Shown here: positions 2,662 through 23,603 of the stretch, piece by piece | Numbering within the stretch: position 1 is the stretch's first letter | How the letters are laid out: the number at the start of each line of letters is the position of its first letter | Source: Suillus spraguei | Lineage: Eukaryota; Basidiomycota; Agaricomycetes; Boletales; Suillaceae | Direction of reading: 5' to 3' | Assembly (NCBI GenBank): GCA_016800925.1 | Contig: JABCPU010000301.1 | Span: 1 to 64,000, forward strand | Length of the DNA stretch: 64,000 nucleotides | The notes under the pieces: model-generated | Told to the model about the DNA's origin: nothing | The model's input: the letters and a program-made list of their open reading frames with translations, nothing else | The model's database searches: none | Position numbers and translations under genes: made by a program

Positions 2662-2777
2662 CCACATATTACAGTGAACTATCTCTGTATTATATGAGTG
2701 AACGGACGTGCATAATATCCACATATTACAGTGAACTATCTCCGTATTATACGAGTGAACGGACGTGCATAATATCC
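2662..2777. repeat. Left terminal inverted repeat of KDZ element, present as a 57 bp tandem pair
   Basis: Two consecutive 57 bp units start at 2662 and 2719. Each holds CAGTGAACTATCTC, then a TATAnGAGTGAACGG core and CATAATATCC. The inner copy (2729-2777) pairs with the right end at 20972-21019, which reads CAGTGA..CTCCGTA..CATAATATCC on the minus strand. The pairing defines the ends of the 18.3 kb element. The duplicated outer copy is unusual and may be the end of the older inverted element. Confidence 0.7.
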
Positions 2778-2779
2778 CG

Positions 2780-3225
2780 TATGATACGGGCCAGCGGACC
2801 ATGGGCCATGGTAGAAATATCCTCGTTGATGACGGATGGGCCGGGAGGAATATTATTCCCGATGACAGCGGGTGGGCCCATGCAAGGAATATGTAGAGTA
2901 GATGAGTGGGCCGATGTACATGAATATCCGGTAGACGGATGGGCCGAGGTAGTTGGATATCATGTAGATGGGTGTATCAAGGTAGATGTGTATCAAATAG
3001 ACAGGTATGTGAAGGGTACTTGTTATCACATACACGGGTGGGCCCAGACACATATTAAATTAGACGGGTATTAGACGGGTGAGCCGAGAGTGTTATATAA
3101 ATATTTATTAGACGGGTGGGCCGAGGGTGTTGTACAGTATATTATATTAGACGGGTGGGCCGAGGGTGGTATAAAATATAGACGGGTGGGCCATGTGTAT
3201 GATAATGGTAGACATGACGGAGCTG
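2780..3225. repeat. Left subterminal repeats of the KDZ element
   Basis: Eight or more irregularly spaced copies of a motif like GACGGGTGGGCCGAGG, separated by AT-rich 25-40 bp spacers. The mirror-image array (CTCGGCCCACCCGTC) lies at 20560-20965 inside the other end. Such arrays commonly serve as transposase binding regions; that role is inferred here. The translated frames across it look repetitive and are not a gene. Confidence 0.8.
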
Positions 3226-3285
3226 AGGGAGTTGCATATCATCTGAATCAGAGGAGGTAATAAATCACAGTTACTGAGTTCCCGG

Positions 3286-3760
3286 AGCAGCAGGTGCTGT
3301 CTTGACATGGCCTTTTGTGATGCTTAGGTTGTCTTGTAGAATGTGGAAACTGGGGTGCGAGGCTTGTGTTGCCCTACAAGACACCCAGCTCCGACCCCCG
3401 AAAATCAAATGAAGCATACCAAGTTCCGAGTTCCGAGACCCGGGTCTCGACACATAATTCAGTCAATAAGAGACACCCAGTTCCGACCCCCGAAATTTGA
3501 GTGAAGCATACCAAGTTCCAGGAGCAGCAAGTGATGTCTTGAAATGGCCTTTATGGCGCTTAGGTTATCTTGTAGAATGTGGAAAGCGGGGTGCGAGGCT
3601 TGTGTTGCCCTACAAGACACCCAGTTCTGACCCCGAAAATCAGATGAAGCATACCAAGTTCCGAGTTCCGAGACCCGGGTCTCGACACATAATTCAGTCA
3701 ATACGAGACACCCAGTTCCGACCCCCGAAATTTGAGTGAAGCATACCAAGTTCCGGAGTT
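3286..3760. repeat. Direct tandem duplication of ~230 bp
   Basis: Two adjacent copies (about 3286-3512 and 3513-3757) share segments such as CCCTACAAGACACCCAG, GAAGCATACCAAGTTCC and GACCCGGGTCTCGACACATA. Each copy also contains a smaller internal repeat of the CACCCAGTTCCGACCCCCGAAA type. It lies upstream of the TET/JBP-like gene and could hold its promoter. No reading frame of interest is seen. Confidence 0.8.
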
Positions 3761-3967
3761 CCGAACCCGGGTCTGGACAAATGAATATCAGATATCCAGC
3801 ACACTTCCAATCATCTGGTATTTCATTGAGCAATGGATGATAATACAGCTTTGAAAGCCAACATCATCCAAGGTTCCCTTATCTGATCCTCACTATCTCC
3901 ACCCCTTTAACACGAAAGTCTGGACATCCAGCATTCAGCGTCTGATTTCCCAATATCAACTTGCAAC

Positions 3968-5270
3968 ATGAACACTTCTTCCATGTCCACTTGTGACATA
4001 AAAATCTGGCGCACTTGGGCCCTGGCCATCACTCATGAAGCAGGGGCATATACCGAGCAAAAATTCAATGCAGAGAAGACTGGAGGAGAACCGGTTATAC
4101 CTTCTCCGAACCTGGACACTGATCTGGTGATGGCGTGCGATCGCTTGGCTGATGTACTCATAAAGGCATATAAAAATCCCAGTGGGTCTTCCTGCAGATG
4201 TTGAAAATGTGTTTGATCATTCAAATTCCTTCATGATAGTTAAGATACAGATTGATATTGCAAGATATAGCAAATTGATATCCCCAAAGAACACTGGGCA
4301 TAATGAGGAGAAAGAGGAGAAGTTGCTTGAGAGGTGTCCTCCTGGCCATGAGGGCACAAAGGTGGTGGACAAACCTGCCACAATTATCGATGTTTCCGGT
4401 ACCATCATCGCATGGTACCTTCCGGACGCCCTGACCGAGACCACCCAGGTGCGTAATGTGTAGATTGTTACTCAATGGATATTGAATATCAAATGGTACC
4501 TACAGAAGGAAATCAGGGCGGCACCGATTTGCTGGGTCCAAGCCTCGAAAAAAGTGTAAAGGCTGATGGCAATTGGCGATATAATCAAGAATGGTTCAAA
4601 CAGGGCTCGGAAAATGTTGGTCAACTCCGGATGCATCAATTTATCTCCGGCATGGTTTCAACAGGGCCACGAGGTAGGATGTGATGAGATGGTGATTTCT
4701 GGAGTCAAACTCACCAATCCATAGAATCTGTCAGATCCGGAGGTATCCGCATCATTGAAGGGACCCTCCTCCGAGAATATCCTGAAAGCTATTGCAAGGC
4801 CGGCAGCCATCGCATCGGCGGCACTCAGGGTCATGCATCCTCAGCAGTATTTTGCAGGGTTACGAGCCTTGTCACACCTCGGAGATAAGGCAGTGAGCAA
4901 GGAACTGCCACAGATGCCAGAGACCCTGCAGTACTGGGCATCCGTGTTTAACAGCCTCTCCATCATTTCCAATCGGGAAACCCCCAATCATCGAGACCAT
5001 TTATCGATTCCTGAATGCTTCGATATTCTCACCACCGTGGGGAACTATTCTAATGCTCGGATGAGTATGCCAAGCCTTCAGCTGGAATTCAGGTATGATT
5101 CCGGCTGTATGATTGCATTTTCGGGAAGAATTGTGAGACATGGTGTTGATGGAGGGGAAGGGGATCGGATTGCTTGGGCATGGTATATGAGGGATTCTGT
5201 GCACATTTATGCCGGGGTTCCCTCATGTGGATGGGCTATGGTCGAAGGCCACATACTAAGCACGGTGTGA
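3968..5270 (+). CDS. TET/JBP-like 2-oxoglutarate/Fe(II) dioxygenase (KDZ cargo), reading frame probably disrupted
   Basis: TET/JBP enzymes oxidise 5-methyl-pyrimidines in DNA using Fe(II) and 2-oxoglutarate; fungal members are often carried by KDZ transposons. The C-terminal block (frame from 4725 to 5270) has the family signature. This is the metal motif H-R-D (codons 4989-4997) after NRETP, then GRIVRHGV with the distal His at 5139-5141, then GDRI with the 2-oxoglutarate-binding Arg at 5166-5168, then YMRD. Upstream, GTIIAWYLPDAL (before 4449) and SPAWFQQGHE (before 4674) are typical N-lobe motifs. Introns are placed at 4449-4505 and 4674-4724; the second contains an otherwise in-frame TAG. 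Two defects remain: an in-frame TAA at 4557-4559 and a frame change at about 4170-4200 between the N-terminal part (ATG 3968) and the following exon. The catalytic core is intact but the complete protein probably is not made. Function is inferred from motifs. Confidence 0.75.
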
Positions 5271-5339
5271 AAGATCAAAGAAGTTGACAGAGTTGTGACC
5301 CATGTTAGTAGCAACACACGAATACCATGTACCAATTAG

Positions 5340-6975
5340 AGCATCAACAGTTTTGGAACTCAAGTCGGAAGTCGAGTTCCATGAATTGAGTCCCTAACTC
5401 TGTGTATCTCGGGACTCGGGACTCGATCCTCGAAATCAGGGACTCAATGATCGATAGTCCGAATTCAGGCTTCACGCTCGGGACTCAGGAAAGTGTGAGG
5501 CAACAGACTTTGATCCACACATTGTGACTGCCGAACACCGAACACCGGCAGCCGGCACTCGGGACTCAGGACTGACACCAATGTGAAAAATATGAATTCA
5601 CATATAGTGAGTGCCAAATCCCAAACTCAGGCAGCCGGAGCTCAGGACTCGGGACTCAGAACAATGTGAAAGATGTGAATTCACATATCATAAATGACGA
5701 ACTCCAAATCCGGCAGCCGGGACTCGGGACTCGGGACTCAGAATAATGTGCAAGTCATTGATCCACACATGTTGAGGGCCGAACTCCGAGCCCGGCAGCC
5801 AGCGGTCGGAACTTGGGACTCAGAAGAACGAGAAAGATATTGATTCCTACATGTAAAGTGCCGAACGCCGAATGCCGAACGCTGTGAAAGATACTGATTC
5901 CCACATATCAAGTGGCGAACCCGGAACCCTGGCAGCCGGAACTCGGGACTCGGGACACACAACATTGTGAATGATATTGATGCACACATGTTAAGTGCGA
6001 ACGCCGACTGCCGAGCCCCGGCACCCGGAACTCGGCACTCGGCACTCACAACAATCCACACATGTTGAGTGCCGAACCCCGAACTCCGGCAGCCGGAACT
6101 CGGGACTCACAACATTGTGAAAGATAGTGATTCCCATATGTAAAGTGCCTAACCCCGAACCCCGGCAGCCGGAACTCGGGACTCGGGACACACAACATTG
6201 TGAATGATATTGATGCACACATGTTAAGTCCCGAACGCCGACTGCCGAGGTCCGGCACCCGGAACTCGGCACTCGGCACTCAGAATAATCCACACATGTT
6301 TGAGTGCCCGAACCCCGAACTCCGGCAGCCGGAACTCGGGACACACAACATTGTGAATGATATTGATGCACACATGTTAAGTCCCGAACCGCCGACTGCC
6401 GAGGTCCGGCACCGGAACTCGGCACTCCGCACTCAGAATAATCCACACATGTTGAGTGCCGAACCCCGAACTCCGGCAGCCGGAACTCGGGACTCCACAA
6501 CATTGTGAAAGATAGTGATTCCATATGTAAGTGATCACGTACGCCGACTGCCGACCCGGCCGGAACTGCACTCGCACTCAAATAATCCACATGTGTCGAA
6601 CCGAATCGCAGCGGATCGGGACCGATCCACATTGTGATGATATGATGCCATTGAATCGAACCCGACTGCCGAGGACCGGGACCCGGAACTCAGGACTCGA
6701 GACTCAGAATAATGTGAAAGTTATTGATCCACATATGTTGACTGCCGAACCCCGCACTGTCGCACAGATATCTATTTCGTCTCGACCCTTGATTGCTGAA
6801 CCCCAAACCATGAAAACCGGTAGTCCACAATTGTGGGGTTCGGGGTTCGGTACCTAAGATTCGTGACTCGCCACTCAGAAATATGTGAGGCAATCTTGCC
6901 ATTTGGAAGTCGAGTCCCATGAATTAAGTCCCAAACTCTAAGTACCATTGCACTCAGGCATTCGCCACTCAGCAT
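5340..6975. repeat. Satellite block 2 (degenerate ~80 bp tandem repeat)
   Basis: About 17-20 diverged units with cores such as CAATGTGAAAGATATTGAT, a CACATGTTGAGTGCCGAAC stretch and runs of CGGGACTCGGGACTC. It is inverse to block 1 (1600-2660) and parallel to 17640-18515. It fills the whole space between the dioxygenase gene and the 246-residue gene. The translated frames here are repetitive and are not genes. Confidence 0.9.
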
Positions 6976-7105
6976 TTGGGATTTAGGACTCTACACCCGG
7001 ATCTTGACATCCAGTCCTCAAAATCCGGAACAAAATATTCGGGAGTCAAGACAATGATTTGGACGGAATAAAATATTTTACATCATGTATGAAATGAAGA
7101 CCATT

Positions 7106-7908
7106 CTAATCTAAACACAGTGAAGAGGACTCCACTCCCCTGCCTCTCTTCAATCTCTGTAGCATGTCAGTGTACATCTTCACCTCTGCCATCTTCTCAT
7201 GGATACCCTCATCTTGCTCCTCCATCAATGCTACCAGGCGTGCTCGAATCATCTTAAGTCCCATCACTGATGGGCCTGATGAGTCATTTACCTCCTCAGG
7301 AAGAACCAAGCCATCATCCTCAACTCCATTTACCATCCAATGCTGGTAGTGAACGACACAGGACCTCATGATCTGACCCCATTGCCATGGTTCATTCGGA
7401 ATTTCGGTGTGTCCCATCCACCATGGAGTATCATAGCTGGGAATAATCCGGGATGGATGTCCCGGAGCTGCGACATCATCAAACTGACACAGGTGGGATG
7501 AAAAGATGTGGTCTGGAACAGTGTTCCAGGTGAGCATGGGATACAATGTCAGGACATGAGCGACGGGGCTTGGAACAACAGAAACGATGTTCCTTGCAGC
7601 TGAGTACTGCAGGAGTGGCGTAACAAATGTCTGTTGGAAATCTCAGCATTGCCCAAAAAAGTCAGCCGGTCATCCGGTCATCAGTCACTTACATTGATTT
7701 CCCATTGCACCCCGGCTTTAAAGTACATGATCCGGGCAGAAGAGGGAGGGTTGTTAGCAGCCTCCATCTGATATTGAGAGATACATGCGCGGATGCGCAA
7801 TGCAGCCATATTCAAAGTACAAGAAATATCTTGAAGGTTCAGCTTCATGGGTTGCCAGTGATGTCCAGTATTTGGAGTGCCAGATGTGGATGCAGGAGTT
7901 TCAGGCAT
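7106..7908 (-). CDS. Uncharacterised 246-residue protein, KDZ element cargo
   Basis: Two exons, 7908-7693 and 7630-7106, joined over a 62 bp intron (GTAAGTGA..CAACAG), give one uninterrupted frame of 246 codons ending at 7106. I do not recognise the family. The N-terminal part contains NLQDISCTLNMAALRIRACI. The middle is rich in aromatic and histidine residues (PWWMGH, EPWQWGQ, VVHYQHWMVNG). The C-terminal third looks helical and could form a coiled coil (RARLVALMEEQDEGIHEKMA). It follows the transposase on the same strand with about 170 bp between them. A decayed inverted copy of its downstream flank occurs at 1460-1600. It is one of the few intact frames in the element and may assist transposition, but that is a guess. 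An upstream exon cannot be excluded. Confidence 0.6.
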
Positions 7909-8079
7909 GGCTAATGCAAGAGTGTGACGCTGGGAATGACACTGACAGATAGTAAAGAGCTGATGATATGAGTCACTGATGGATGGATTAGAAATTCAAA
8001 CTCCGACATGGGCTGACCCGGACAATTCCCGGGACTCAATGTTTGGGTGTCAAATATGCGTTTCATCAGCAAAACAAAT

Positions 8080-11000
8080 TCATTCATGTGCACCATCGAT
8101 CAACGAGGGCTGCAGGTCTTGAAATGCTGCCTGTGCATCCTGAGCTAGTAAGGAATACATTTGAGACTGCCTTCCGGCATAGCATGCATGACCCGGAAGT
8201 TGTTTCAACAATGATTCCTGCATCCGGGCACCCCATGTGGTTGCCTTCCACAAGAAAAAGTTGCACGTCCAATCCATCTCTGATTGCACCAATGATATTT
8301 CTTCCTTCCATCGATCCCGTAGTGCCTTTGCCCGAAGCCAATGAACTCAGTAAACTTGGGATGGGTCCTGTCAGCTCACCACGTAATATATCAAGCATGC
8401 CCGAACTCACATTCCTCATTCCACGAATTTTCTGGACCCTCCATGTCGACTTCCACTGACCAGAACCAAGCGAGGGACTCATTTCGCTGACCTCGGGCGT
8501 TTGGATCGCCGATGGCAGTGCTGATTTTGAGCTGCTCGCGAAGCAGGGGTTTGTATTTCTGAAGCTGGTCTGGCCCCGGCTCAAGTTGTATCATTTGCTT
8601 CCTGGTTTTTGTATATATACTGGCATGTAGGGATACTGCCTGCTGCACTGATGTCACCTGGGACCACGCTCGAGTTTTTAGGGCTTGAGATTTGGCTTGC
8701 CTAACTGTTGTTCGGAACAGGATAGCCTTGTTGCACAAGTGAATGCGGAGATTGTGCAGGGCATCATTGGCCTGCCCTTCACGAAGGGACATCTCCAATG
8801 GAATCAGATCCTCTGCCATACAGCGTCTGCAATGTTCAACCCCGAGGTTTGATGGCAATGGAATTATGGTGAGCTCAGGGGAGTTTGTCCATGCATCAGA
8901 TGTCTCGGTGAAATCGCCGGGTCATCATCGATATCGTCAAGAATATCTATGTTCAAGTCGTCAGGATCGTCATCTGCATCAAATCCCTCTCCAGATGCGT
9001 AAGAGCAGACCGAGTGAATTCATCTATCTGGCCTTGAATACGATCGCGTTGCCGGGCGATATCTAATCTCTGTGTCTCCGTCGATCGTCTTCCAATTCTG
9101 CGGACCTCGATGAGCAATGCAATTTGAGCCTCTTCAATTGCCAACCCAATGGATATCCATGTTGCCACAGATCTGCGAGAGGGTGCTGCATGACGGGCAT
9201 TACCCGCTTCTAGTAGTCTAAGCTCGATCTCCTTTTTGCTTGGTGCTAAGTGAAAAATGAATGCGGAGCTCCACGGAGACAAAGAATGTTAACTTACCCT
9301 TCTTGATATTGATTTCATATAAATCCATCGCCGCAGGATCCCTGATTCTCTTGGACTGAGCGACCATCTCGCTGGCTAACCATTGTGTCTTTAAATTGCC
9401 GGGTGCAGCTTCATCAAGTCTGTCGAAAGCCTTGCCACTTTCGGCGATGCCATTCTTCGCCAGCTTGTATTTCCGGCAAAGAGTCCTTTTCATGCGGATC
9501 ATCTTGCAGAAATTGGAATCGTTCATCTGATAATCAAGACATTCCTTTCGGTGCGGGGATGACATTCCCCGAGCGGCAGGGGAAATCAGGTTGAGACGCG
9601 CCCATAGGGTCTCCATGATCTCTCCATCAATCCGGCCAATGCCTTCAATAAAATTCGAAGCATATCGGACATAGCAACTGTCCTGATGTCCATGCACATG
9701 CCACAACCCGATTCCAGGAATGATGGTCAGTTCCGGTACCATGTCAAGGTATCGGCTTCGATCCACCCGAACACGAAAGTGCTTGTTGTATTGACAATTG
9801 AATGTCATAGAAGGTGACAGCCCTGGTAATGCCTTCCATGTTGTGCTGGGCAGCCTCACAAAGGCATAGTCCATGTTCATTTGTCTGCAAATGATGCATG
9901 GTCAACTAGTGAATGTCGAATGGCATGTTTGGCTTGCCCTTTCCCCTTTCTGAAAATCAACCATCGAGTGAGGGACAAAGCACCCATGCCGGGCGCAGGC
10001 AACTCCCCCGATTCCTGTGGACTCGAGCTTGTGCCGCGCCGCATTTGCTTGATTGACCGCCCGGTGATTGTTGCAGCTCGATTTTTCCACCGTGTCAGCA
10101 GCCTCCGCAAGATGCATGTTATACCTGTCCTTTCCGACCATGAATCCAAGCCCATCTGAAAGCCAAACTTCATCGAGGGGATTAATGGGATGCCAGGTGT
10201 TCAGCTTTGAAATTTCCGTCCATCACAAATGACCGGGTGTATTTCCAGCTTGGAGTTCTTATCATCGCCGAGTTCACTTCGGTATGAACATGACTCACTC
10301 ATCAAGTGATTCATCCCCTGACAAAGATACATTAATCCCAGGCTGAGGACATGCCGGGCAAAATAATGCAAGATCTCCTGCGTTCGGGATGTCAGAACGA
10401 TGGCCATAGCCATGCCATTTCATGGTCTTCAACTGCCTCCACTGTCGAGCGACTCTCATGAGCTCTCTGTATCGATCCTTTCCACGGCCTGTGTCAACAT
10501 CATGTCCTTTAGATGAAGCACAAATAGCATTACCGGAACAAGGTGTGGAAACATGCTCGAGGTCATTCGCCGGAGCTTACTGTAATAGTTCATTGCGGAG
10601 GTGCCGCATTCAAGGTTGTCCAATAGAAAATCATCCAGCACTCCGAAGGTAAACACGGTCTTCGGCCTGTTAAACGATGCAGGGAAAAATCCATGCCGAA
10701 ACATTTGAATGTCCGGACTCATGGCATTTGGACAATCACAGCAGCGAACCTCGAGGCGGTGAACTCCGGACTTGTCAACGATGACCATGGTGTTTTCCTT
10801 CGCTGGAACTCAGGTCCCGACACAGACGGAAGATCTTCGGGCTCAAGCTGGTCTTCAGGTTCATCTCCTTCGAACAAATCCCACCTATCTGTGAGCACCG
10901 GACATTGCTTGCCATCATGCCCAAGGTGTATGGTGAGTCCACATGAGCGAGACAACTCCGCTCGAAGAATTGACCATTCCATTGACTGATCCAGTGGAAA

Positions 11001-11507
11001 GGATTGCAACGATGTTGACTCCTGCAACAGCCCGTGCAATAGAGAGGCTCGCCAAGACAATCTTGACATTTGTAGACCCCATCCTGGTGGCAGATGATGC
11101 ATCTCCTGTCTTCTGGTGGAGCTTCTCATCCAGGAGGTGATGCAGATATGATTCCTGCCTTGGCAGCCATTGCCTGAGGTAGTCATTTTGACTCTGCATT
11201 TTTTATATTGAGCTATAGTTTGAATGACACTCCAACATTTAACATGAACTTGCCATGGTTTTTTGGGAGTTGCAATGGCTCAAATGAGCCTTGGTCTTGC
11301 TCGTAAGTATTGTCAGGAAAGTCATCCCAAGGAGGTGGTGCCTGAACAGGCTGAAGTGTTGGTGATTCTGGGGAGAGTGAGGCATGGACCTGTAGGCTCG
11401 TCGTCTGTGCTTGCAAGTGGGACCTTGACCCAAATCTTTCTACCTTTGCTGCCCCTTGCTTCTACCCTGTGGGATTTTTGCAATGGGGTGCATCTACCTA
11501 TCTTCAT
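8080..11507 (-). pseudogene. KDZ transposase with CxC2-type cysteine cluster (multiple frameshifts)
   Basis: KDZ transposases are RNase H-fold DDE enzymes that move the element. Reading down the minus strand, a basic N-terminus lies at about 11507. The paired-cysteine cluster RCIICHQDG..CQDC..CTGCC..H..NPFHWI lies at about 11105-10960, then LGHDGKQCP and VRCCDCPNAM, then VLDDFL, then GDLALFCPACPQPGIN (about 10380) and CNNHRAVNQAN (about 10080). CARHGCFVPHSM follows at about 9990. The first catalytic Asp lies in a YDI motif (about 9804-9812), directly followed by NCQYNKHF in another frame. Next come HVHGHQDSC (about 9700), GRIDGEIMETLW (about 9620), an intron at 9246-9297, and a C-terminus with REGQANDALH and TRAW ending at 8080. 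Frame changes occur after the cysteine cluster, near 10480, near 10250, at the catalytic Asp and near 8410, and a TGA (from CGA) lies at 8347-8349. The copy is therefore defective. Confidence 0.85.
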
Positions 11508-11743
11508 CTTATTTTATAATGCTAATGTTGCAAGCAAAGCATCTGCTCAGGTGGAATGAATTTTTATTACATTGTGGTGTCATACTGTCCTGCCGACTCA
11601 TTACAAATTTATGTCCATTTATGGCTTCGGGACCAATATAGCTCAATTAAGCTACTGTTAGGCTTTTGTCAAAGATCAACTTCTGACAATTCGTTCATAC
11701 TTCCACCTTGCTTATCCTCAGCCCATTCTGCAATTTGATTCAC

Positions 11744-13598
11744 CATGGCAAGGACGGTCATTCCACTCACTCGACTTCCGCAGAAATAGGGCACGTCAAC
11801 CACAGACACAGAAGCTCACGGAAAACGAAAATTTCGGAGTTGAAGAACTACCTTCCTGAGTGGACCGCAGCCAAAAGGGGTGAGAAGCGAGGGGTTTTCA
11901 CTGCAATTGCCAGGGCAGCCAGGTTGTTTGCTCCTAAAGTCGACCAAGGACAATGGAAAAAGAGGAAGCAGGTGATGCGTCTTCGTTGTGTTGAAAAACT
12001 ACAATTTTAACATCTTATTCTTCCATCAACTCTCAGATGTATAAGACTTGGTTGTTCAACAACAAGAAAAGGAAGGAAAGGAAGGACATGATAAAGTATG
12101 GGAGGAAATGGACGCCTAGGATGGTGGTCTACCAGCAGAAGCGCAAAGAGGTGCTAAAGAGGATTGAGGACGAGTCCGGGCAAAGCCGGGAGATCCCGGT
12201 ATGTTCAAACATTATCAGGGGGCTGTGAAGAGAGTCATGGCTGAATTGGATGACAAGAGTTGGAGAAGGCAAAAGAAACAGCGGAAGAATGGTCAAACAG
12301 CTTTCCTCCTCCGGAGATACAAGCAGAAGTTGCTCGTAAGAAGGGACCAGCATATATGGAGCACTTTTCGAAAGAGATGTGGAGGCAATGCGGGATGAGA
12401 GTTTTTGTGTTGTCAGCTTGGAAGAATGAACAGGGAGAGGTTCTGTTCGGGATGTAAGTCAATTGTGTCCGTCATCGCCGATCTTGGATCTCAATATATG
12501 TGTGCAGGCATGATGATAATGAGGCATTAGGAGATGGGGACAGCTTCATGAAGACTAAGGACTGGGAGGACATTGAGCCAGTATGGCAGGAGTACGCCCA
12601 GGAACAGTTCAGTGAGTGTTTGAACTTTGGATGCAAGAATGAATTCGTTGATCATCACAATGATAGGTGCCGGGCACAGGACGGAGGACGACAGGTCAAG
12701 GGAGGTCGCAAAAGAGTCAGAAAACCAGCTTTGAACTCGACACAGATGGAATGGGATGCCGTTGCTTCCAGACATCACGGAAACAAAACTTGAGGAGAAG
12801 AAAGCCATAGTCAGGGCGTTTCTTACATCGCACTACAGTGAGTCTTTCGTGGCAACATCCGAGATGTTGCTGAATGCGTGGACACAGGAATATGTTCCGG
12901 GAATGACAAGGCTGTCGTGCCATGGAGTGCCCTCGTACAAAGTCAGGATGACTTTGTGGCAAGGAAGTATCTTCCGGCGGATATTGACCTGAAGGAGCCT
13001 TCGAAGTTGCAAAACTGGGACACGACGGCCTTGCTCAATTTCTGGTATGCTCAGCAGGAAACAGGAAAAGATTCAACATTCCTGTTCAAAGCATGGAAGA
13101 ACAAGGATGGGGACATGGTACCATCTGTGGTATCGGCAAGTCGCCATCGCGTCTGACTCGTCAAGTGAGAATGCAGAAGAGTGGAACTCTCCGAAGGCCC
13201 CAGGATCCATCAACCAAGCCGAGAGTGATACCGACAGTGAAACTCATGACAAGGAGGATGACATTGATGATGACTCGGCTGATGGTCGATCCCCACTGAA
13301 GAAACCCAGACGAATAGCACATCCATCTTCAGCACCCAAGGAGACAGAAGTTCCATGTTCAATGCCAGAGCCTCGCCCGGCCAGGCCGGCCAAGGCAGGT
13401 GCACTTTTGACATCACGGATGGGCGACCTCCTGGCCAGGTTGACTGAGGAAGTGGAAGAGAGGAACACATCGCCGGAACCAAGGAGTATACAGGGCAAGA
13501 AAGCTGTCATTGAACCATCCGCAAGGACCACCCGGAGTAAGTCTCAAAAGCCGGTAGAGAGTACACTTCGAGTAACCAGGGCAAGGGGAAGGAAATAA
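11744..13598 (+). pseudogene. Lysine-rich KDZ companion gene of unknown function, frameshifted
   Basis: The segments form a consistent protein only when several frame changes are allowed. They are ELKNYLPEWTAAKRGEKRG (about 11835-11900), an intron of about 65 bp ending CTCTCAG before 12037, then MIKYGRKWTPRMVVYQQKR, then HYQGAVKRVMAELDD, then EVARKKGPAYMEHFSKEMW and VLSAWKNEQGE. A second intron (12454-12507) leads to DDNEALGDGDSFMKTKDW, LLPDITETKLEEKKAIV, VARKYLPADIDLKEPSKLQ and an acidic, proline-rich tail ending TRARGRK at 13598. Frame shifts lie near 11830, 12200, 12255, 12750, 12885 and 13125. It runs head-to-head with the transposase. I recall similar proteins beside KDZ elements in mushroom genomes but cannot name a function. 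The strongly basic first half suggests nucleic-acid contact. Confidence 0.6.
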
Positions 13599-13676
13599 TG
13601 TACATATACCAAACTGCCCCCATGTTACCACATTTTCATCATTTGTCACACTTCTCAAAACACAGTGTCCCACTTC

Positions 13677-14087
13677 CAAAATGTTGAATCCTAAGCACCG
13701 AGTTCCAGACGAATCCTGATCACCGAGTTCCGGACGACTCCCGATCACCGAGGTCCGGACCAGGTATCAATCATTGGTAGTTGGTATTAGAATTAGGGTT
13801 TGTGCATCATCTAAAATAATTGAAATGTCATTGTTATACATGAAAAATTCAGTGGTTCACATGATGTAAGTATGTGAATGAATATCCAAATATTACGAAA
13901 CCTGATCACCGAGTTCGGATGAATCCCAATCACCGAGCTCCGGACCCCGGAATCAATAATTGGCTGTTGGAATGTGACAATTGGGTGTGTGCATCATCTA
14001 AAATCAATTGGAAATGTCATTGTTATACATGAAAAATTCAGTGGTGAACATGATGTAAGTATGTGAATGAATATCCAAATATTTACA
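13677..14087. repeat. Direct repeat of ~180 bp (two copies)
   Basis: Two copies (about 13715-13900 and 13915-14087) share ATCACCGAG..CCGGAC, a GTGCATCATCTAAAAT stretch, TCATTGTTATACATGAAAAA and GTATGTGAATGAATATCC. They fill the space between the lysine-rich gene and the acidic-protein gene. They may contain a shared 3' end for the two converging genes. No other content is seen. Confidence 0.8.
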
Positions 14088-15098
14088 TATGGGGTTGATC
14101 ATCACACTTTTCAATGAGGGTATCTAATACAAGCAGCAATTCAGAGCTCATCTGTTTGGCCCTTTGCAACCTCCGGAGGTCCATATCAGCTCTTCTGAGT
14201 TTGTCGGATGTGTCAGCCCAAGCCACTCGGAATGGTCGGTCAGCCTCAAGGAGTTGATGTACGGTAGGCTCCGGAAGATGGCCATGACGCTGTTGGTAAT
14301 GGTCCAGGCGATCCAGAATTGATTCAACTTCAAGAAAATTAGCAGAAAGATACATGATGAACAATTAAATGCTCACATTCTGTTTGATCATATGACCCTA
14401 GGGGCATGAACTCCCTAAGCATGGCACGCAGGTCTTCATTGCTGAGTTCCGGTATGGGGGACTGACATTTAGGAGGTGTTGCATGTGCTTGGGACATCAC
14501 ATCAACAATAAAAATGAGATTGTATGAATGAACTCACCTGGAATTGCTATTCCTGGGATAGCCGGAGCATCAATCTCAACATCAGCACATTCCGGTGCTT
14601 CATCACAATCAATAAGATCATCATCAGGCCCTAGGTACAAGTCCGGATCGTTGAACAAAGGCAGTTCCTCAGGCTGAGCCGGGCATAAATGATCTGGATG
14701 GATTGAATGAACATCCACAGTTGGATTATCTAAATGTGAATTGAGAAACCTACCAGGAACTGCATCCAAGACATCCGGACACCTGATGACCCAGAATCAT
14801 AGTCGATCTCATCATCCGGCCCAAGGTATACATCTTCACATGGATCTAATAAATGTCCAGTCAATTGTAAGATACACTCAAAGCAACACATACCTGATGA
14901 AATCCGGGACTCAGTCTCATCATCCGGCCCAAGGTATACATCATCCAGTGCATCTGGTCCATCTCCGGTCAATTGAGAGCTGTACTGAAAGCACAACATA
15001 CCTAGTGAAATCCAGGAGTCGGTTGAGTCATCCACATCCATTGAGTTGTATTCAGTGACCGGAGGTTCATAAAATCTGACTGCTGGTTGAGATCTCAT
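14083..15098 (-). CDS. Acidic repeat protein with C-terminal coiled coil, KDZ cargo
   Basis: An intron-rich gene of unrecognised family. From the ATG at 15098, short exons separated by small introns each carry an acidic module: DDVYLGPDDE near 14940, EDVYLGPDDE near 14820 and DLYLGPDDD near 14635. A longer exon then reads SPIPELSNEDLRAMLREFMP (about 14450-14400). After an intron beginning GTGAGCATT, a helical last exon (ESILDRLDHYQQRHGHLPE, then RRADMDLRRLQRAKQ) ends at 14083. The introns between modules resemble each other as well as the exons, so exon-intron units were duplicated together. One proposed intron (about 39 bp) is shorter than normal, so the first junction is uncertain. The gene lies between two other KDZ cargo genes. 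Its function is unknown. Confidence 0.55.
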
Positions 15099-15316
15099 GA
15101 TGTCTGATCAACTGATCAAACTGATTGATAACTAATAACTTCGAAGTTCAACACATGGCTGGCAACGGCCGAAAGTTGAACCACAACCAAACAAAGACAA
15201 ACAATCAATGCTTATCAAGATCGTTCTTCAATTGTCTGGTTTCCTTTGAAACTTCATCCTAGTGATAACAGATTTCAAACTTATCTCAAGCTTTCACATC
15301 TTTCAACTCAATCCAA

Positions 15317-17451
15317 ATGTCTACTCCAGTTCAAACCTCTTTGGCCGGTCTCAAGGCAACCACTGCTCAGATTGTGGGCATCATCCCGGGGCACAGCTCA
15401 TACCTGCCGGCACTGGCCAAGCCCACGTTGCTCTGACAGCACAAGTCACTAATCTTGTGGTAAGTACCATTCATGTGTTAATTTTACTTTTGGTTTTTCT
15501 AAGATCTGTTTAGGCTGAGATAGTCAGGGAGCATGAGAAAGGGCCTTACATGCCCGGCATCATTGCATCCTGCTCCAAGGAGTTGATGAGAGTCAGGTCC
15601 ATGACTCCCCAGGTGTGGCCCAACTGGCACAGCATCGGCCATGATGACCCCCGGGTGTTGAAACACTCCTGGCGCAGCAAGATTCGCGCCTGGGAGGCTT
15701 TAGGTGACCATTCAGGTGATCTCCCTGTCATGCCTAACCCTTCCATTGGCCCAATCACTGTGGACCTTCCCTCCCCACCCGTCGTCGCCGGCAATGTCGC
15801 TGGTTCTTCCACCCACGCCACCTCCGAGCTCCGGGACAAAGGAAAAGGTAAGGCAGTTGTTGCTGACATAGAGCCGGAGGTGGAAGGGAGCAGGAAGAGG
15901 AAGTCCCCCATGATGTCTGGACACTCTTCCTCACCTCCAAGTCGGCCAAGAAGGGTCGCAAGTGGGTCAAGGCAACTCGCCATGTCAAGCAGAAGGTGCT
16001 TGTGGAGTCGGAAGATGATGAAGACACAATTGTTCAGGTATGTCGTCCAGCTCATTGTTTTCATTCTCTCAATTTTCTGTAGCCTATTTGAGTGGAGTGC
16101 CGGCGCTCAACGTTCCCCAGCCTTCCACAATTGGTGTAGGGACGCCTCATTCCCCTCGTTCACCACGTTCCCCAAAGAAGCAATTGTTTGGTCCTGCTTC
16201 AGTAAGTAATATTTAGTTGTCCGGCACGTGGAAAAATGCTTATATATCATCAGCTCATTGCTGGCAGTCCACCCAAGGTGATGGTGAGTCATCATTTTTG
16301 TCCGGACCTCCTGCCTGTACTTACCCATTGTCAGGCCTCCTCTGGCAGTCGTCCGGAGGTCGTGGAGACTCCCCAGGCAATGTCCAGCACTCCAGCTGAG
16401 GAACCTGCTGTCATGGATACAGGTGATATTCTCATTCCCAGCCCAGTGAGTACTCTAATGAATTCCAATGAGTCCATCAACTAATGGAACCCACAGAACA
16501 ACCCCTGCCATTATTGCACCCAGGAGAAGTGGCCCTGTGCCACTCGGTTGGACAGGAGGACCCGTGCCCCATATTTGTTGTGCATCCGCTGCGCCACCAA
16601 GAAGATCAAATGTGTCCCAGCATCCATGGGATCCCCGCCAAAACGTATTCGAGGGAAGTCTACCACCCGGCAGGCTCGCTCCAGGACACCTTCCAGAGCT
16701 CCCTCCAATGCGCCGGCTGCCTCGCAGTCCAAAGCCCGAACTCGCAGTCAATCTCGTGGCCCCTCCGGCACTCTGGCTGTCCCTGCTGTGACCACACCCA
16801 AGGCACAGTCCCGTGGGCGCAGCAAGACAATCACTGCCCCCAAGACACCTGCACCTGCATCAGCTTGTGAGTCACCCCAATTGTCTATGACCATCTGACC
16901 TTATCTTTCACTTAGCTATTCCATCTTCAAGCGCCGCAGTGCCTCGTCCGGCACTCGATGTGCCCATGCCGGATCTCCATTCCATGGCAATTGCAATTTG
17001 GGATGGTGCCACTCGAATTGCTCTTCTTGAGGCTCGTGTGGCGGAGCAGGATGGTAAGATTGATACCCTGCAACGCCTCCATGAGGGCCTTTGTCGCAAG
17101 GTCATGGACCGGCACCCTTCATTTCCACTTCCTGACTCTCCTGTCAATGCAACCTTTTTGCTTGATCAATCTGTCCCCCTGTCCATCTCACCCCTCCCAT
17201 CTGCACTTGCTCCCCTCATTGACTTGGATATGGCAGGGATGGAGCCTCCGTCTCCGAAAGTCCAGCCTGCATCTATCATTGAGGGTCTCATATTTGAGCT
17301 GAGCCAGATTCAGCCTGAGGGTCCACAAACATCCGGCGAACTTGTGGACCCAGATGATCCATGCAACCTTGTCCCAGAATATGATTCTGATGATATGGAT
17401 GTTGAGGTGAAGGTTGAACCCTCTGCTGATGAGGGTGAAATGGCTACATAA
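15317..17451 (+). CDS. Zinc-cluster and coiled-coil protein, KDZ cargo (at least two frame breaks)
   Basis: Multi-exon gene. The start MSTPVQTSLAGLK lies at 15317, and an intron at 15460-15513 leads into AEIVREHEKGPYMPGII. After several short exons comes a cysteine cluster at about 16500-16620: NPCHYCTQEKWPCATR, about 15 residues, then LCIRCATKKIKC. The spacing resembles fungal Zn2Cys6-type or other paired-CxxC DNA-binding clusters. A basic SR/RS-rich stretch follows. After an intron ending CACTTAG at about 16915, the last exon has a predicted coiled coil (IALLEARVAEQDGKIDTLQ) and an acidic tail that stops at 17451. A one-base frame change lies near 15390 and another near 15930. It probably belonged to the element's own gene set, possibly as a DNA-binding partner of the transposase; this is inference. 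Confidence 0.55.
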
Positions 17452-17639
17452 GTGTATGTTCATAGATGTATATACAATGTTTGAATGAATGTCAGTGCTG
17501 GATGCCAAGTCCGGAAATCCAGAACTGGACAATGGAGATTCACAATGGATATTTCGCGACTTCCGGATATCCGGCTACCTGAAATACAACACACAATTTA
17601 AAGAATTTGAAACATCTCTGTCGAGTTACCTTGTGCCGG

Positions 17640-18727
17640 GTGCCGGGTCACATTGTGAAACATATCATTCCATATATCTTAAGTGCCAAACCCCGGACCC
17701 AGGACCCTGGAGTTGGGACTCATCACCATGTGACAGATATCGATCCACATATTTGATGTGCTGAACCCCAAACTCCGGCACTCGGGAGTTAGAACAATGT
17801 GAGGCAATACAAAGATATTGATTGACACATGTTCAGTGGAAAGATGTCGATGCACATATTCTATCACCGAACCCCGAACCCCGGCACCCGGGAGTTAGAA
17901 ATATGTGAGGCAATACAAAGATATTGATTTACATGTGTGGAGTGCCGAACCCCGAACTCCGGCACCCGGCAGTTGGGACTCTGGACTCGGGACTCATAAC
18001 CATGTGAAAGATATTGATCCACATATTTAACCACCCAACCCCGAACCCCAGCACCCGGGAGTGAGAACAATGTGAGTCAATACAAAGATATTGATGTACA
18101 CATGTTGAATGCCGAACCCCGAACTCTGGCACCCGGCACTTGGGACTCGGGACTTGGTAGTCATAACAATGAGACAGATATCGATCCACATATTTTAACA
18201 CCGACCCCCGGACCCCGCCACCCGTGAGTTAGAACCATGTGAGGCAATACAAAGTTGAGTCCCGAATCACGATCACCGAGTGCCGGGTTACCATGTGAGG
18301 CAATACCATGATATTGATTACACATGTTGAGTGCTGAACCCCGAGCTCCAGCGCCCTGGAGTTAGCACAATGTGAGGCAACACCATGATATTGATTTACC
18401 CATGTTGAGTGCCGAACCCCGAGCTCCGGCACCCAGGAGTTAGCACAATGTGAGGCAATACCATGATATTGATTTACACAAGTTGAGTGCTGAACCCTGA
18501 GCTCCGGCACCCGGCACCCGGAGCTCGGGGTTCGGCACTCAACTTGTGTAAATCAATATCATGGTATTGCCTTACATTGTGCTAACTCCCAGGTGCCGGA
18601 GCTCGGGGTTCGGCACTCAACATGTGTAAATCAATATCATGGTATTGCCTCACATTGTGCTAACTCCCGGGTGCCGGAGCTCGGGAAGTCCTGAGTCCCG
18701 AGTGCCGGGTGCTGGAGTTCGGGGTTC
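17640..18727. repeat. Satellite block 3, containing a large palindrome
   Basis: Same ~80 bp family as blocks 1 and 2, with units such as CAATGTGAGGCAATAC, AAAGATATTGAT, CACATGTTGAGTGCCGAAC and CCGGCACCCGGGAGTTAG. Orientation flips at about 18520. It lies immediately downstream of the zinc-cluster gene. No gene is present. Confidence 0.9.
18310..18690. repeat. Near-perfect inverted repeat (palindrome) centred near 18520
   Basis: The left arm (about 18320-18515) contains CATGATATTGATT..ACATGTTGAGTGC and GAGCTCCGGCACCC. The right arm (about 18520-18690) contains its reverse complement in the same order outward, with few mismatches and almost no spacer (GGCACCCGGCACCCGGAGC at the centre). It marks where the satellite orientation reverses. 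Confidence 0.8.
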
Positions 18728-19496
18728 TGTTAAGACTGTACTCAAGGGTAGAGAGATCTGAAGGGCTTTGGCCTCAGTTCGTGCACTGTGCCCCTTTCTC
18801 GAGTAATGCCCCTTATTTCAGGGAGGAGTTATTCGTCTGAAGACCCGGAAGGAGTTGCGTGACGGATCCGGGTGTCTGAAGGTGTCAGATATGATATGTC
18901 CGAAGGTTATTTGGAACGTAAGGAGAGGACAGAGATTAAGGCTAGTTTCGGAATGAGTTCCTAACTAGAAACTAACGGAGATAGACTATCCGAAGATAGA
19001 GTCGGAGATATAGACTATAGGAATCAATCCTAAGTCTCGGAAGGTGACTTAAAGCGGAAAGTGGCTTAAGTCCGGAGGAGGCAGAATGAGTAGAATCTAA
19101 GATGATATTTGAACTAAGGTTCTACGGAGATCTACAAGTGGTTTATATACTGTAAGTATCTAAGACGGATAATCAGCAAGTCCGGGACCGAGGGCTATGT
19201 ATGAAGTGTAATGGGAGTCTATTAGTTAATGCACAGCGGATCAATAAGCATGAATCGGAAATGAACACAGGAAATGGATCAGTAACACAGGACGGAAATA
19301 TAAACAGCTGGAATACCAGAAACAGGAGGAATGACGAAAGGAGATAGATGCAGATATACACAAGGGAGTTAAGGTGCGAGAAGTGAGCACATTCGGATGG
19401 GTGGTCCGGGCAGGATCTGTGGACCGGACAGATATGAAATCGATCGGATCTGATCGGATATGGTCGGATCTGAGATTAGAAGTATGGTATATGACA
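18728..19496 (+). repeat. Solo LTR of a Ty3/Gypsy-like element with 5 bp target duplication
   Basis: It begins TGTTAAGACT at 18728 and ends ATGACA at 19496, 769 bp in all. It is flanked by GGTTC at 18723-18727 and GGTTC at 19497-19501, so it inserted into the satellite and the internal part was later lost by LTR-LTR recombination. It resembles the LTR at 232-1334 in the GGCCTCAG..GTGCCCC region. No coding sequence was seen. Confidence 0.8.
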
Positions 19497-19501
19497 GGTT
19501 C

Positions 19502-20280
19502 GGCACATACAATATGTGGATCGAGGTCTTTCACATTGTTTTGACTGCCGACCCCCGAGCTCTGGCACTCGGGGTTCGGCACTCAACATGTGTAAATCAA
19601 TATCATGGTATTGCCTCACATTGTGCTAACTCCCGGGTGCCGGAGCTTGGGGTTCGGCAGTCAAAACAATGTGAAAGACCTCAATCCACATATTTTATGT
19701 GCCGAACCCTGAACTCCAGCACCCGGCACTCGGGACTCGGGACTTCCGAGCTCCGGCACCCGGCACTTGGCACTCGGGACTTGGTACTCATAATGTGAAA
19801 GATCTTGAGCAACATATTGTCAGTGCTGAACCCTGAACCCCGGCACCCAGCACTCGCAACTCGGGACTCAGAACAATGTGAGGCAATAGACACCTATTGA
19901 TCCACACATTCTAAGTGCCGAACTCCGAACTCTGAAATCTGGTAGTCTACTATTTAGGGGTTCACGGTTCGGTACTCGGGCTTTTGCACTTGAGACCGAA
20001 AACAATGTTAGGCAATATAATGACTTTGATCCACACATTTTTGGTAGATATCTTTTTCATCTCAAATCTCGAATCTCGAGTGCTGAACCCCCAATCCCGA
20101 AATCTGGTAGTCTACAATTTCGGGGTTCGGTCCTCGGGACTCAGACACATGTCAGGCAACAACAAAACTTTGATCCACACGTTTTTGGTAGATGTCTGTT
20201 TTGTCTCGAATCTCGAGTTTCTAGTTTCTAGTTTCAGTACTCTGCACCCGCACCCGGCACTCAGCACTAGATGACTCCAC
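19502..20280. repeat. Satellite block 4
   Basis: Continuation of block 3 beyond the solo LTR, with a further orientation change near 19650. Units become more diverged toward 20280, where CACATTTTTGGTAGATATCT-like segments appear twice (about 20030 and 20175). 20281-20560 holds no recognised gene or repeat. Confidence 0.8.
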
Positions 20281-20559
20281 ACATGGACTTTAAATCTTTC
20301 ACCTTGTGTGTTGTGTTTCGGGTGTCCGGGTATCTGGAATTCAGGAAATCTCTAGTTTGCATCTCCAGTTTCGAGTTCCTGGATTTGGGACTTGGCACCT
20401 GGCACCCGGCACCTCAATTATCGATGAATGTCAGACATGATGAATTCAGGTTTTCGTGCTTCAGGGTTTAGATTTTGGTGGTTGATGGTAGGTATATGCA
20501 CTCATAGGGTGCATGTATCCTATGTGTTTGATTCTCTGGTGGCTACATCAGCTGTACGT

Positions 20560-20971
20560 CTTTATCATACATATCTAGGCCCACCCGTATATGTAATATA
20601 TTTTACCTCAGCCCACCCGTCTATGTAAAATTCCCCCACATCGGCCCACCCGTATATGTAATATTCTCTCACCTCGGCCCACCCGTCTATGCAATAATAT
20701 TTGCCTTGCGTCTCTCTTCAGCCCAGCTGTCTATAATATCCTACTCTACATACTACCCAGATGAGCCCACCCATCTCTGTCAGATTTTATATCCCCCTGG
20801 CCCATCCGTCAACATCAGAAATCATGTTTCCCTCGGCCCACCCGTCTCTCCCGAAAATACAAGTCTCCCGGCCCACCCGTCTCCATCGGAAATAATATTC
20901 CCCCCAGCCCATCCGTCAACATCGAGGATATACATAACCTCGGCCCATCATCCACTGGCCCGTCTTTGACA
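20560..20971. repeat. Right subterminal repeats of the KDZ element
   Basis: About ten copies of a motif like CTCGGCCCACCCGTCTATGT with 20-30 bp spacers, the mirror image of the array at 2780-3225. They lie just inside the right terminal repeat. Confidence 0.85.
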
Positions 20972-21019
20972 GGATATTATGTGGGTCAGGTGACCCGTAT
21001 AGTACGGAGTTTGTCACTG
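20972..21019 (-). repeat. Right terminal inverted repeat of the KDZ element
   Basis: Read on the minus strand from 21019 it shows CAGTGA, CTCCGTA, TATACGGGTCA and CATAATATCC. These match the left end (2729-2777) in the same order with a short indel and several substitutions. Gypsy pol coding sequence starts within about 10 bp beyond it. Confidence 0.7.
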
Positions 21020-21021
21020 AA

Positions 21022-23603
21022 GGGGCTCTCACCGAGCCTTAGCTGAAGAATCTTGGGACCTTACCACCTTCCAGACACCTCTCGGCACTTTTCAACTTAC
21101 TGCATTACCTATGGGATGGACAGATTCTCCCACGGTCTTTCAAAATGACGTCGCATTCATCCTTCAACATGAAATCGATATCGCACCAAATTTTCAAGAT
21201 GATGTTAATGTTCTCAGCTCTCGCACATGATATGAGCTCTTGGACGGCACTTTTGAGACCATTCCCGAGAATTCCGGCATTCGACGATTCATTTGGGAGC
21301 ACTGCTTAGATGTGAATAGAGTTTTACACCGTCTTAAGCATGCAGGAGCCACGGTCTCAGCAAAGAAGCTTTTTAGTTGTGTACCTGAGGTTATCATTGT
21401 CGGCCAGCGCTGTACTTATGAGGGACGCATTCCCAATGACTCGAAAGTCGTCAAGATCAAGAACTGGCCTCCCTGCACGACACGATCTGAAGTCCGTGGA
21501 TTTTCAGGCACTGCAGGAACAGTCCGCAACTGGATTAAGAACTACGCCCTACTCGCATGCCCGCTTACTAATCTCACTCGCAATGCTGTGCCTTTTGTTT
21601 GGGATGAAAATGCGCAGACCTCCATGAACACCCTTAAACATGCCATCATTAATTCACCCGCTATTCGACCCATCAATTATCATAGCTCTAATCCCGTCAT
21701 TCTAGCCGTCGACTCCTCCCATATTGCCTACGGTTGGATTCTGCTTCAGCTCGACAACGAAAATTGTCGTCGACCATCTCGTTTCGGCTCGATTACTTGG
21801 AATGACCGAGAATCTTGCTACTCACAAGCAAAAATCGAACTTTATGGTCTATTTCGCGCACTCAAAGCTACCAAAGACTGGACAATCGGAATCAAGAATT
21901 TTATTATCGAAGTTGACGCAAAATATATTAAGGGTATGCTCAATAACCCTGACATTCAGCCAAACGCAGCTGTTAATCGTTGGATCGCAGGAATCTTATT
22001 ATTTGACTTCATGCTCAAACATGTTTTGGGATCGAAGCACACTGGCCCTGATGGTCTCTCACGCCATCGTCAAGCACTGGAAGATGAAGATTTCGACGAA
22101 GAAGATTTGGGAGAAGTTGAAGAGTGGATAGATGAAGTCCTTAGCTATGGGATATGGACAGTGATGGATTCTCACAACGGAAGTCTCGGAATGATGACCA
22201 AGGCTCAGGTTTTCAATTCTATGAAAGCCAACATCAGTACTGACCTTGAATTCCCGTGCAACGAAGGTTCCAAATGGTGCGATGATGACCTTCGGGCCAT
22301 TCAGCATTATCTCGAGACGCTCGCATTACCTTCGGGTATGCAGCTCTCAGCTCACTCTCGTTTTCTTAAATGAGCAGCACAATTTTTTGTTCATAATACA
22401 CAACTTTGGCGTCGTAATTCTGCAGGTCGTCATCAACTCATCATTTTCCAAAATGACCGCTCTCGAATTCTCCAGCAGACTCACGACAATCTTGGACATA
22501 AAGGTTTCTATTCAACTCGAAAAACCATTGCTGATCGTTTTTGGTGGCCAACTCTCAATCACGACCTTTCGTGGTACCTTAAAACATGCCATCAGTGTCA
22601 GCTTCGATCTGTCGAGAAAGTTGTTCTCCCACCTACAGTTGCCATTCCCGCACCTTTGTTTCACAAAGCCTATACCAACTCAATGCATATGCCAACCTCG
22701 CACGGACATTCCTACATTGTTCAAGCTTGTTGTTCACTTTCAGCATGGCCCGAATGGCGAATGCTATGGAGAGAGACTGGTCGCATGCTGGGAAATTTTA
22801 TCTTTGAAGACTTATTGTGCCGTTGGGGAGGACTTGAAGAGATAGTTACAGACAACGGGACTCCGTTTGTGGCTGCGCTCGACTGGCTCGCATCGAAATA
22901 CCATATCTGTCACATCCGCATTTCAGCCTATAACTCTAAAGCCAATGGAATCGTCGAACGTTCGCATTGAACGATCCATGACTCACTTGTTAAAGCTTGT
23001 CAAGGTGACATCACCCAATGGCCAGTATTTGCGCCACATATCTTTTGGGCAGACCGCATCACCACTCGCAAATCGACGGGACACACGCCATTTTATATGG
23101 CGCACGGCATCGAACCTCTGCTTCCGCTCGACATAACAGAAGCAACATTCCTCATAGCTGACATCACCGAAATCATCCCTACCCACGAACTTATTGCAGC
23201 CCACGCACGACAGCTTGCCAAACGAGATGAAGACCTTGCACACATTCACAAGCGCGTCCTTGCAAGTCGTTATGCCTCTGTGAAAGATTTCGAGCGTCGT
23301 TTTTCAAACATCATCAAGGACCGACACTTTGAACCAGGCAAGCTCATTTTAGTCCTTAACAAGAAGATTGAGCCGTCGTCGAATGCAAAGTGCAAGCCAC
23401 GCTACTTTGGTCCCATGGTTGTCGTTTCACGAAACACAAACGGCGTGTATTGTCTTGCAGAGGTCGACGGCGCTGTGTCCAAGCTCAAATTTGCTGCGTT
23501 TTGTCTCATCCCCTATCACTCACATTCCCCGACTACACTCGAAGTCACTCAGATTATCGATGCAGACGCAATCACAGGGATGATAGGATTATTCAATGTA
23601 TAG
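21022..23603 (+). pseudogene. Ty3/Gypsy pol (reverse transcriptase-RNase H-integrase), 5' truncated
   Basis: One reading frame (codons in phase with 21030) runs from the KDZ end to 23603. It encodes the C-terminal half of the reverse transcriptase (TFQTPLGTFQLTALPMGW, then QDDV in place of the usual YxDD-type box). RNase H follows (ILAVDSSHIAYGWIL, then EVDAKYIKGML). The integrase has an H-H-C-C zinc finger (HDNLGHKGF..CHQCQ) and DDE-type core motifs (ADRFWWP, EEIVTDNGTPF, NGIVERSH). The frame is interrupted only by TGA codons at 21228-21230, 22371-22373 and 22968-22970, each where the family has Arg. Gag, protease and the N-terminal reverse transcriptase are missing because the KDZ element abuts here. 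Confidence 0.85.

Follow-up and report, generated by a model that had tools for sequence, protein, structure and literature searches.

It is in Suillus spraguei (Boletales) that we describe a large KDZ transposon which carries a TET/JBP dioxygenase gene and, as stable cargo, four further genes. The element occupies positions 2720..21028 (18,309 bases) of the window, by which we mean the whole 64,000-nucleotide stretch analysed here (assembly GCA_016800925.1, contig JABCPU010000301.1, positions 1 to 64,000; this is contig C483 in our numbering of an assembly of 86.2 Mb and 1256 contigs). The six genes and the two ends almost certainly constitute one mobile unit of about 17-18 kb, as an initial annotation made from the letters alone had proposed, and the evidence for this consists of near-constant spacing among copies, 7-bp target duplications, empty sites, and the adjacency of three of the cargo genes in other Suillus species. 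Very probably, this unit is a Kyakuja-like KDZ element whose cargo plays an accessory rather than a host role. Its apparent novelty lies in the four genes conserved as cargo, foremost the one for a Zn2Cys6-like coiled-coil protein, and in their combination with two internal arrays where paired CGG triplets are dense.

The extent of the element was defined by the points where its copies cease to match. Flanking sequence is present at 29 of 30 left-end loci, with 28 distinct flanks, and all of them diverge directly before CACATATTA, while 39 of 40 right-end matches reach 21028, nine bases past 21019; for these reasons we take the element as 2720-21028, with CACATATTA-CAGTGAAC as its left true end at 2720 and TCACTG-AAGGGGCTC as its right true end at 21028. 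The initial annotation had delimited it as 2729..21019: the element itself was correctly recognised, and each true end lies nine bases further out. The outermost nine bases on the left (CACATATTA, 2720..2728) have no mirror image at the opposite end, where copy alignments place AAGGGGCTC at 21020..21028. Inside these tips, self-alignment reveals the mirrored ends that had also been noticed, at 2729..2900 on the left and 20848..21019 on the right, the former being identical to the reverse complement of the latter in 131 of 182 alignment columns, with a score of 76.5, where 200 shuffles gave none above 10.5. Further mirrored arrays of short repeats follow, again in agreement with the annotation: with up to two mismatches, GGCCCACCCGTC occurs 22 times in the window compared with 2.84 expected occurrences, a count reached by none of 100 shuffles, and nine of these units, all on the minus strand, form the left subterminal array (2831..3192), whereas nine others, all on the plus strand, form the right one (20578..20917). 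The remaining four occurrences fall outside both arrays, two of them still within the element.

This element is not a solitary one in the genome. The counts of its zinc, lysine-rich, KDZ, 246-residue and TET gene copies are lower bounds drawn from the best-scored candidates, and they amount to at least 40 copies for the zinc gene at 94-100% identity (best 40 of 240 candidates), at least 40 for the lysine-rich gene (best 40 of 215), at least 42 matches for the KDZ stretch (best 40 of 246), and at least 150 matches for the TET query, all above the cut-off (150 of 197 candidates scored); the 246-residue gene is 99-100% identical in all 40 scored copies (best 40 of 204). In parallel, patterns of the two tips, allowing one mismatch, found 293 left and 275 right ends, and their reversed controls found none. 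The landmarks nearly keep their distances: the zinc and lysine-rich genes are 3551-3588 bases apart in 15 of the 16 copies with both listed (3384 in the remaining one), and the zinc and KDZ genes are 6075-6113 bases apart in 12 of 13, the other value, 5449, coming from a KDZ match cut by a contig end. Of 26 zinc copies with enough contig, the window included, 16 have a TET gene upstream at a distance of 7-14 kb and in the same orientation, and the acidic gene is whole in 28 of 29 zinc loci outside the window. Chains of five to seven of seven landmarks in order appear on at least 17 of 26 rows, which is again a lower bound since the chains were drawn from hand-picked sub-lists of the listed matches, and in the chains with two identified ends these are 17.2-18.5 kb apart; on three more zinc-gene contigs (C379, C69 and C1) the ends are 15.7-16.8 kb apart.

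The mobility of the unit is documented by its insertion sites. The copy on contig C427, of 17,242 bases, has AAGATAC on each side, and when 35 left flanks were compared with 40 right flanks, seven exact 7-base matches appeared at six distinct sites, with none at lengths of 6, 8 or 9 (L112, on C281, yielded no right end for this comparison). Other offsets gave zero or one match, except for one cell of six, which is attributed to a repeated CCATTTC flank. Insertions of this element make 7-bp target duplications. The initial annotation had suggested looking for empty sites in related strains; in the same assembly, the joined flanks of the C427 copy match targets free of the element on C364 (query 4-238 in 235 bases, 90%) and C715 (7-240 in 235 bases, 86%), and partially on C628 (47-240, 88%). 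C364 and C715 are, then, empty sites in a repeated target.

In the copy of the window, the right flank starts with TCACCGA, the left end is present twice within a 57-bp duplication, and the sequences before the outer copy (ATGGAAC) and the inner copy (TAATATC) do not match the right flank, so that the window copy cannot by itself prove a single insertion, given that its flanks form no target duplication. The left flank (1-2660) carries stretches that resemble, in inverse order and at 82-98% identity, positions 8814-9036, 7970-8089 and 6701-7127 and the first internal array of the element. These are pieces of another KDZ element, namely a 3' KDZ part, the end of a gene of the 246-residue type and array-1-like repeats, with identities of 73-98% over the flank. 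Moreover, the left half of the window copy is 99-100% identical to other copies and the right half about 97%. We favour an assembly mis-join over recombination between copies as the origin of this mosaic, and we consider it rather probable that the assembler joined two loci inside the repeat, in which case both the mosaic identity and the unmatched flanks would be technical. Besides the uneven identity of the two halves, this account is favoured by the fact that five of the six target-duplication sites pair ends from different contigs, for which reason the assembly seems to be broken or switched inside the repeat, and by contigs C905, C678, C493 and C341, each of which stops exactly 2305 bases past the same junction of a right end with KDZ interior; a true recombination between copies would nevertheless look alike. 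The copies that share this KDZ-interior right flank could also be read as an amplified composite, which we disfavour given the equal distances to four contig ends, since four ends equidistant from the junction make the reuse of one repeat path by the assembler more likely. As a separate observation, C836 (L019) and C108 (L035) share a left flank and may be one locus assembled twice.

These same irregularities are what could be invoked for a very different picture, in which several elements, nested in one another or joined, would make up the layout in place of a single unit. The inverted pieces of another KDZ element in the left flank, the duplicated left end, the presence of KDZ-gene interior in 6 of the 41 right flanks read, and the single match among 12 same-contig flank pairs all speak for it; against it stand the recurrence of the landmarks at equal spacing on many contigs and the 17.2-kb copy with its target duplication and empty sites. 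Such a composite is most improbable, and one of unrelated nested elements is rejected on the recurrent spacing, with a reservation about assembly switching. We return here to the single mobile unit, for which four points count on the negative side. First, 10 of the 26 zinc copies with room have no TET gene among the 129 of 150 TET rows used. Second, among the 12 same-contig end pairs read, matching 7-mers exist only in C427, which was probably caused by assembly switching. Third, that switching also weakens the long-range chains as evidence for the unit. Fourth, the adjacency in other species described below covers the zinc, acidic and lysine-rich genes only.

As to the two genes of better-known families, the TET/JBP dioxygenase gene, of the AG type, is on the plus strand at 3968..5270, with exon 1 at 3968-4181, exon 2 at 4240-4447 and the catalytic last exon within 4725-5270. 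This last exon aligns to CcTET (7vpn, 8jkk) at about 5e-23, with the HRD motif, the distal His and the Arg aligned, together with the motifs GRIVRHGV and GDRI; at the two places typical of the AG type, counted by eye on the alignment, where Gly or Ser (CcTET 331) and Asp (CcTET 337) are expected, it has Ser and Asp. The TET of the element has its catalytic residues in place, just as the first reading of the sequence had indicated, and is a putative 5-methylcytosine oxidase; of the cargo products, it alone belongs to a family whose chemistry is known. One might take the stop that follows the first exon of this gene for a lesion, a reading rejected since the stop is present in all 30 left-end loci; a 58-nt GT-AG intron (4182-4239) accounts for it, and exons 1 and 2 then read through in frame. 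Compared with copy L069, the window TET has three single-base losses in exon 3 and one in the following intron. The KDZ transposase gene is on the minus strand at 8084..11200 (approximate limits, by eye), with its cysteine cluster CxC2 at about 10555-10800 and the KDZ domain at about 9512-9883; both domains predicted at the outset are above their cut-offs, with E 6.1e-20 and 72.3 bits versus 26.6 for KDZ (PF18758), and E 1e-22 and 80.8 bits versus 27 for CxC2 (PF18803).

The association of KDZ transposases with TET genes in mushrooms, which the initial annotation had mentioned, is already in print: TET-bearing Kyakuja transposons are described in Agaricomycotina, with Boletales among their hosts (Kojima 2025, PMC12730594), in a paper whose main text does not name Suillus. 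Target duplications are 7 bp in Kyakuja and 8 bp in Zisupton and Dileera (PMC12730594), and the Suillus element shares with Kyakuja a KDZ transposase accompanied by an AG-type TET, the 7-bp duplications, the 5'-CA start and perhaps, as far as the very tip goes, the lack of an inverted repeat (PMC12730594). Three differences must be kept in view. The 3' end here is TC instead of TG; from base ten on, the ends here mirror each other imperfectly, the outermost nine bases being different; and four further genes are stable cargo here, without mention for Kyakuja in the accessible text of PMC12730594. We call the element Kyakuja-like, rather than a proven member, because its 3' end is TC while the published wording on CA..TG termini concerns two Laccaria families (PMC12730594). 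Another point of comparison is given by KDZ1-3 of Cryptococcus, which are about 9-11 kb long, with terminal inverted repeats of 139-241 bp, duplications of 4-8 bp and observed insertions (PMC12810828); these have in common with our element that their KDZ transposase includes a CxC domain (CxC1 there), and the accessible text of that paper describes no TET cargo in them.

The four cargo genes are those that had been listed at the beginning, that is, a zinc-cluster coiled-coil gene, an acidic-repeat gene, a lysine-rich gene and an open 246-residue gene. The last has two exons on the minus strand (7106..7908) and is open in the window copy; the lysine-rich gene is on the plus strand (11744..13598), with 531 residues as read through; the acidic gene has six exons on the minus strand (14083..15098), with 256 residues in copy L044; and the zinc-cluster gene has seven exons on the plus strand (15317..17451), with 611 residues in the same copy. 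In L044, a copy located on C614, all seven exons of the zinc gene are open, its introns being without exception GT-AG and of 45-54 nt, and the acidic gene is open over all six; among 30 copies, the zinc gene is open throughout in 12 and the acidic gene in 17. In the window, the zinc-gene stretch has four single-base losses relative to other copies, and the lysine-rich gene has further ones relative to copy L033. Within the aligned stretch, 29 of the 43 single-base deletions counted fall in a run of the same base, and we do not call the window copy dead, since deletions in homopolymer runs fit uncorrected long-read errors as well as decay.

In 2014, Iyer et al. reportedly described several KDZ elements that code for further proteins, a divergent HMG domain being one of these. 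Such additional proteins are what the Suillus element has in common with those elements, and no HMG family is found among the Pfam matches of its cargo. The zinc-cluster, lysine-rich and acidic proteins, and also the open stretches of the 246-residue gene, have no accepted Pfam family, and searches of solved structures with the lysine-rich and acidic families gave chance-level matches (E 0.18 and 0.35). The zinc-cluster protein is the most informative of the four: the spacing CxxCx6C-x14-CxxCx6C is present in 69 of the 120 homologues listed (of 180), always with a loop of 14, and in none of the 120 and 72 members of the other cargo protein sets, while eight of the other 51 zinc homologues hold a KKIKC- or NNPC-like string. 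It is followed by a conserved heptad-like stretch, judged a coiled coil by eye and from a sub-threshold Pfam match. It is plausible, on these sequence features, that this Zn2Cys6-like zinc-cluster protein is a DNA binder.

The genus Suillus is the source of all 120 listed zinc matches (of 180) and all 120 listed lysine-rich matches (of 133), and 69 of 72 acidic-gene matches are named Suillus. We examined the adjacency of 68 of the 72 acidic homologues (three have no locus tag) to the listed zinc and lysine-rich homologues, with "same contig" meaning the same species prefix and a contig of equal size, and with null draws taking tags uniformly. By locus tag, 15 of the 68 have a zinc homologue as immediate neighbour (null mean 0.002, maximum 1 in 1000 draws) and seven a lysine-rich homologue; for 45, at least one of the two lies on the same contig, and six contigs hold all three; in Suillus bovinus, EDB93DRAFT_1247622, 1247623 and 1247624 are the zinc, acidic and lysine-rich genes.

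It could still be thought that the cargo genes are mere passengers, acquired once and without a role for the element, any anti-silencing being done by the TET alone. This would suit the acidic gene, with its neutral ratio of nonsynonymous to synonymous substitutions (N/S) within the genome, and the absence of accepted Pfam matches for the cargo. It does not suit the zinc gene, whose N/S among copies is 0.59 of neutral (112 and 77 substitutions against 134.4 and 54.6 expected, p 3e-4, with p-values here assuming independent substitutions), from which it follows that selection seems to have kept the zinc-cluster protein; nor does it suit the continued neighbourhood of three cargo genes in other Suillus species or the 99-100% identity of the 246-residue gene, which may only mean a recent spread. 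We thus regard the passenger explanation as unlikely, and continue with a cargo in an accessory role.

Among the known targets of Zn2Cys6 proteins are everted CGG pairs. The element contains two internal arrays where such pairs abound, the first at 5400..7000, whose tandem units measure about 75-83 bases or more, with 28 occurrences of CCG-N5-CGG, and the second at 17640..20450, with 19. Shuffled versions of the two hold 0.62 and 0.44 occurrences on average. The arrays have densities of 17.5 and 6.8 per kb; the remaining 13.9 kb of the element contain eight occurrences, and the density over the rightmost 43 kb of the window is 0.09 per kb. Apart from this, the second array is broken at 18728-19497 by a repeat that also flanks other left ends (L023 88%, L025 94%) and is perhaps a retroelement piece.

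This arrangement bears on the question of how a TET enzyme that has no known target would benefit the element carrying it. The published account states that no experiment has validated what TETs do in fungal transposons, speculates that the AG type acts without target specificity, and already puts forward the anti-silencing idea for TET-bearing Kyakuja elements (PMC12730594). In the scheme that we envisage, the transposase would act on the two ends by cutting and joining, making the 7-bp target duplications, and the zinc-cluster coiled-coil protein would be a sequence-specific partner recognising CGG-containing repeats, its targets being the internal arrays with everted CGG pairs, the subterminal GACGGGTGGGCC units, or both. 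So placed, it might mark the element's own DNA for transposition or prepare the ends for the transposase, and it might also bring or focus the TET on the element; the TET would then oxidise CpG methylation at promoters and ends, and silencing would weaken. The lysine-rich, acidic and 246-residue proteins may be further accessory factors.

The central step, a zinc protein that would guide the TET as well as the transposase to repeats of the element itself, is proposed tentatively and by analogy, with a logic like that of VANC or TnpA and without any claimed homology. The Arabidopsis VANC protein of VANDAL elements causes methylation loss in its own element, its targets often being tandem repeats (PMC5735166); the Suillus element differs in carrying a TET enzyme, and the likeness would be one of logic. 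In the case of Spm/En, TnpA binds repeated subterminal units, of 12 bp in En-1 (PMC2613891), and what the Suillus element may have in common with it are repeated subterminal units at the ends and a candidate DNA-binding product, the motif and the protein being different here and the superfamily there being CACTA. This precedent also opens another explanation, where the zinc protein would be a TnpA-like transposition cofactor that brings the ends together through the subterminal repeats, with methylation not involved and the TET acting separately. The nine-plus-nine mirrored units and the TnpA of Spm (PMC2613891) support it, and the CGG pairs, which lie mainly in the internal arrays and not at the ends, oppose it; we see it as a possible, somewhat doubtful, reading. 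More doubtful still is the complete self-targeting demethylation machine, in which the zinc protein would read CGG (each holding a CpG), the TET would be the eraser, the arrays the targets, and the other three proteins members of the complex.

Several results weigh against the explanation proposed here. A seven-base microrepeat generates the CGG pairs, and direct CGG-N4-CGG pairs are more frequent, with 58 and 41 in the two arrays; we take the everted pairs as a lead and not as proof, because the same microrepeat also yields these direct pairs. The Pfam family Zn_clus (PF00172) matches 20 of 44 zinc homologues weakly (E up to 1, best 0.0013), its cut-off is not reached by homologue P0001 (10.2 bits versus 21), and the zinc protein of the C614 copy has no Zn_clus match at E up to 1. 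Finally, the acidic gene shows no signal of purifying selection within the genome, with a ratio of 1.07 from 46 substitutions when L061, which misaligns, is left out, and of 1.01 with it.

In the open-licence literature searched, we found no description of the four-gene cargo or of the paired CGG arrays, and no paper on Suillus Kyakuja elements. A high-copy family that keeps a candidate DNA-binding protein beside a TET and possible target arrays makes the purpose of TETs in fungal transposons testable.

Some minor observations complete the description. C150, C369, C374 and C376 have left and right tips of equal orientation at a distance of 4-10 kb, a hint at shorter relatives that are perhaps non-autonomous. 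At L033 (C309:1-3000), a left end is inserted in another copy's lysine-rich gene, at the equivalent of window position 12176, either by self-nesting or by an assembly join, and at L032 (C310) a 54-base right-end fragment is located just left of another copy's left end, in the opposite orientation. In the left flank of the window copy, positions 597-884 are a 36-copy GCTCCTCC microsatellite with a 96% match, and directly right of the element, at 21231-23603, there are open frames that by eye resemble a retroelement pol.

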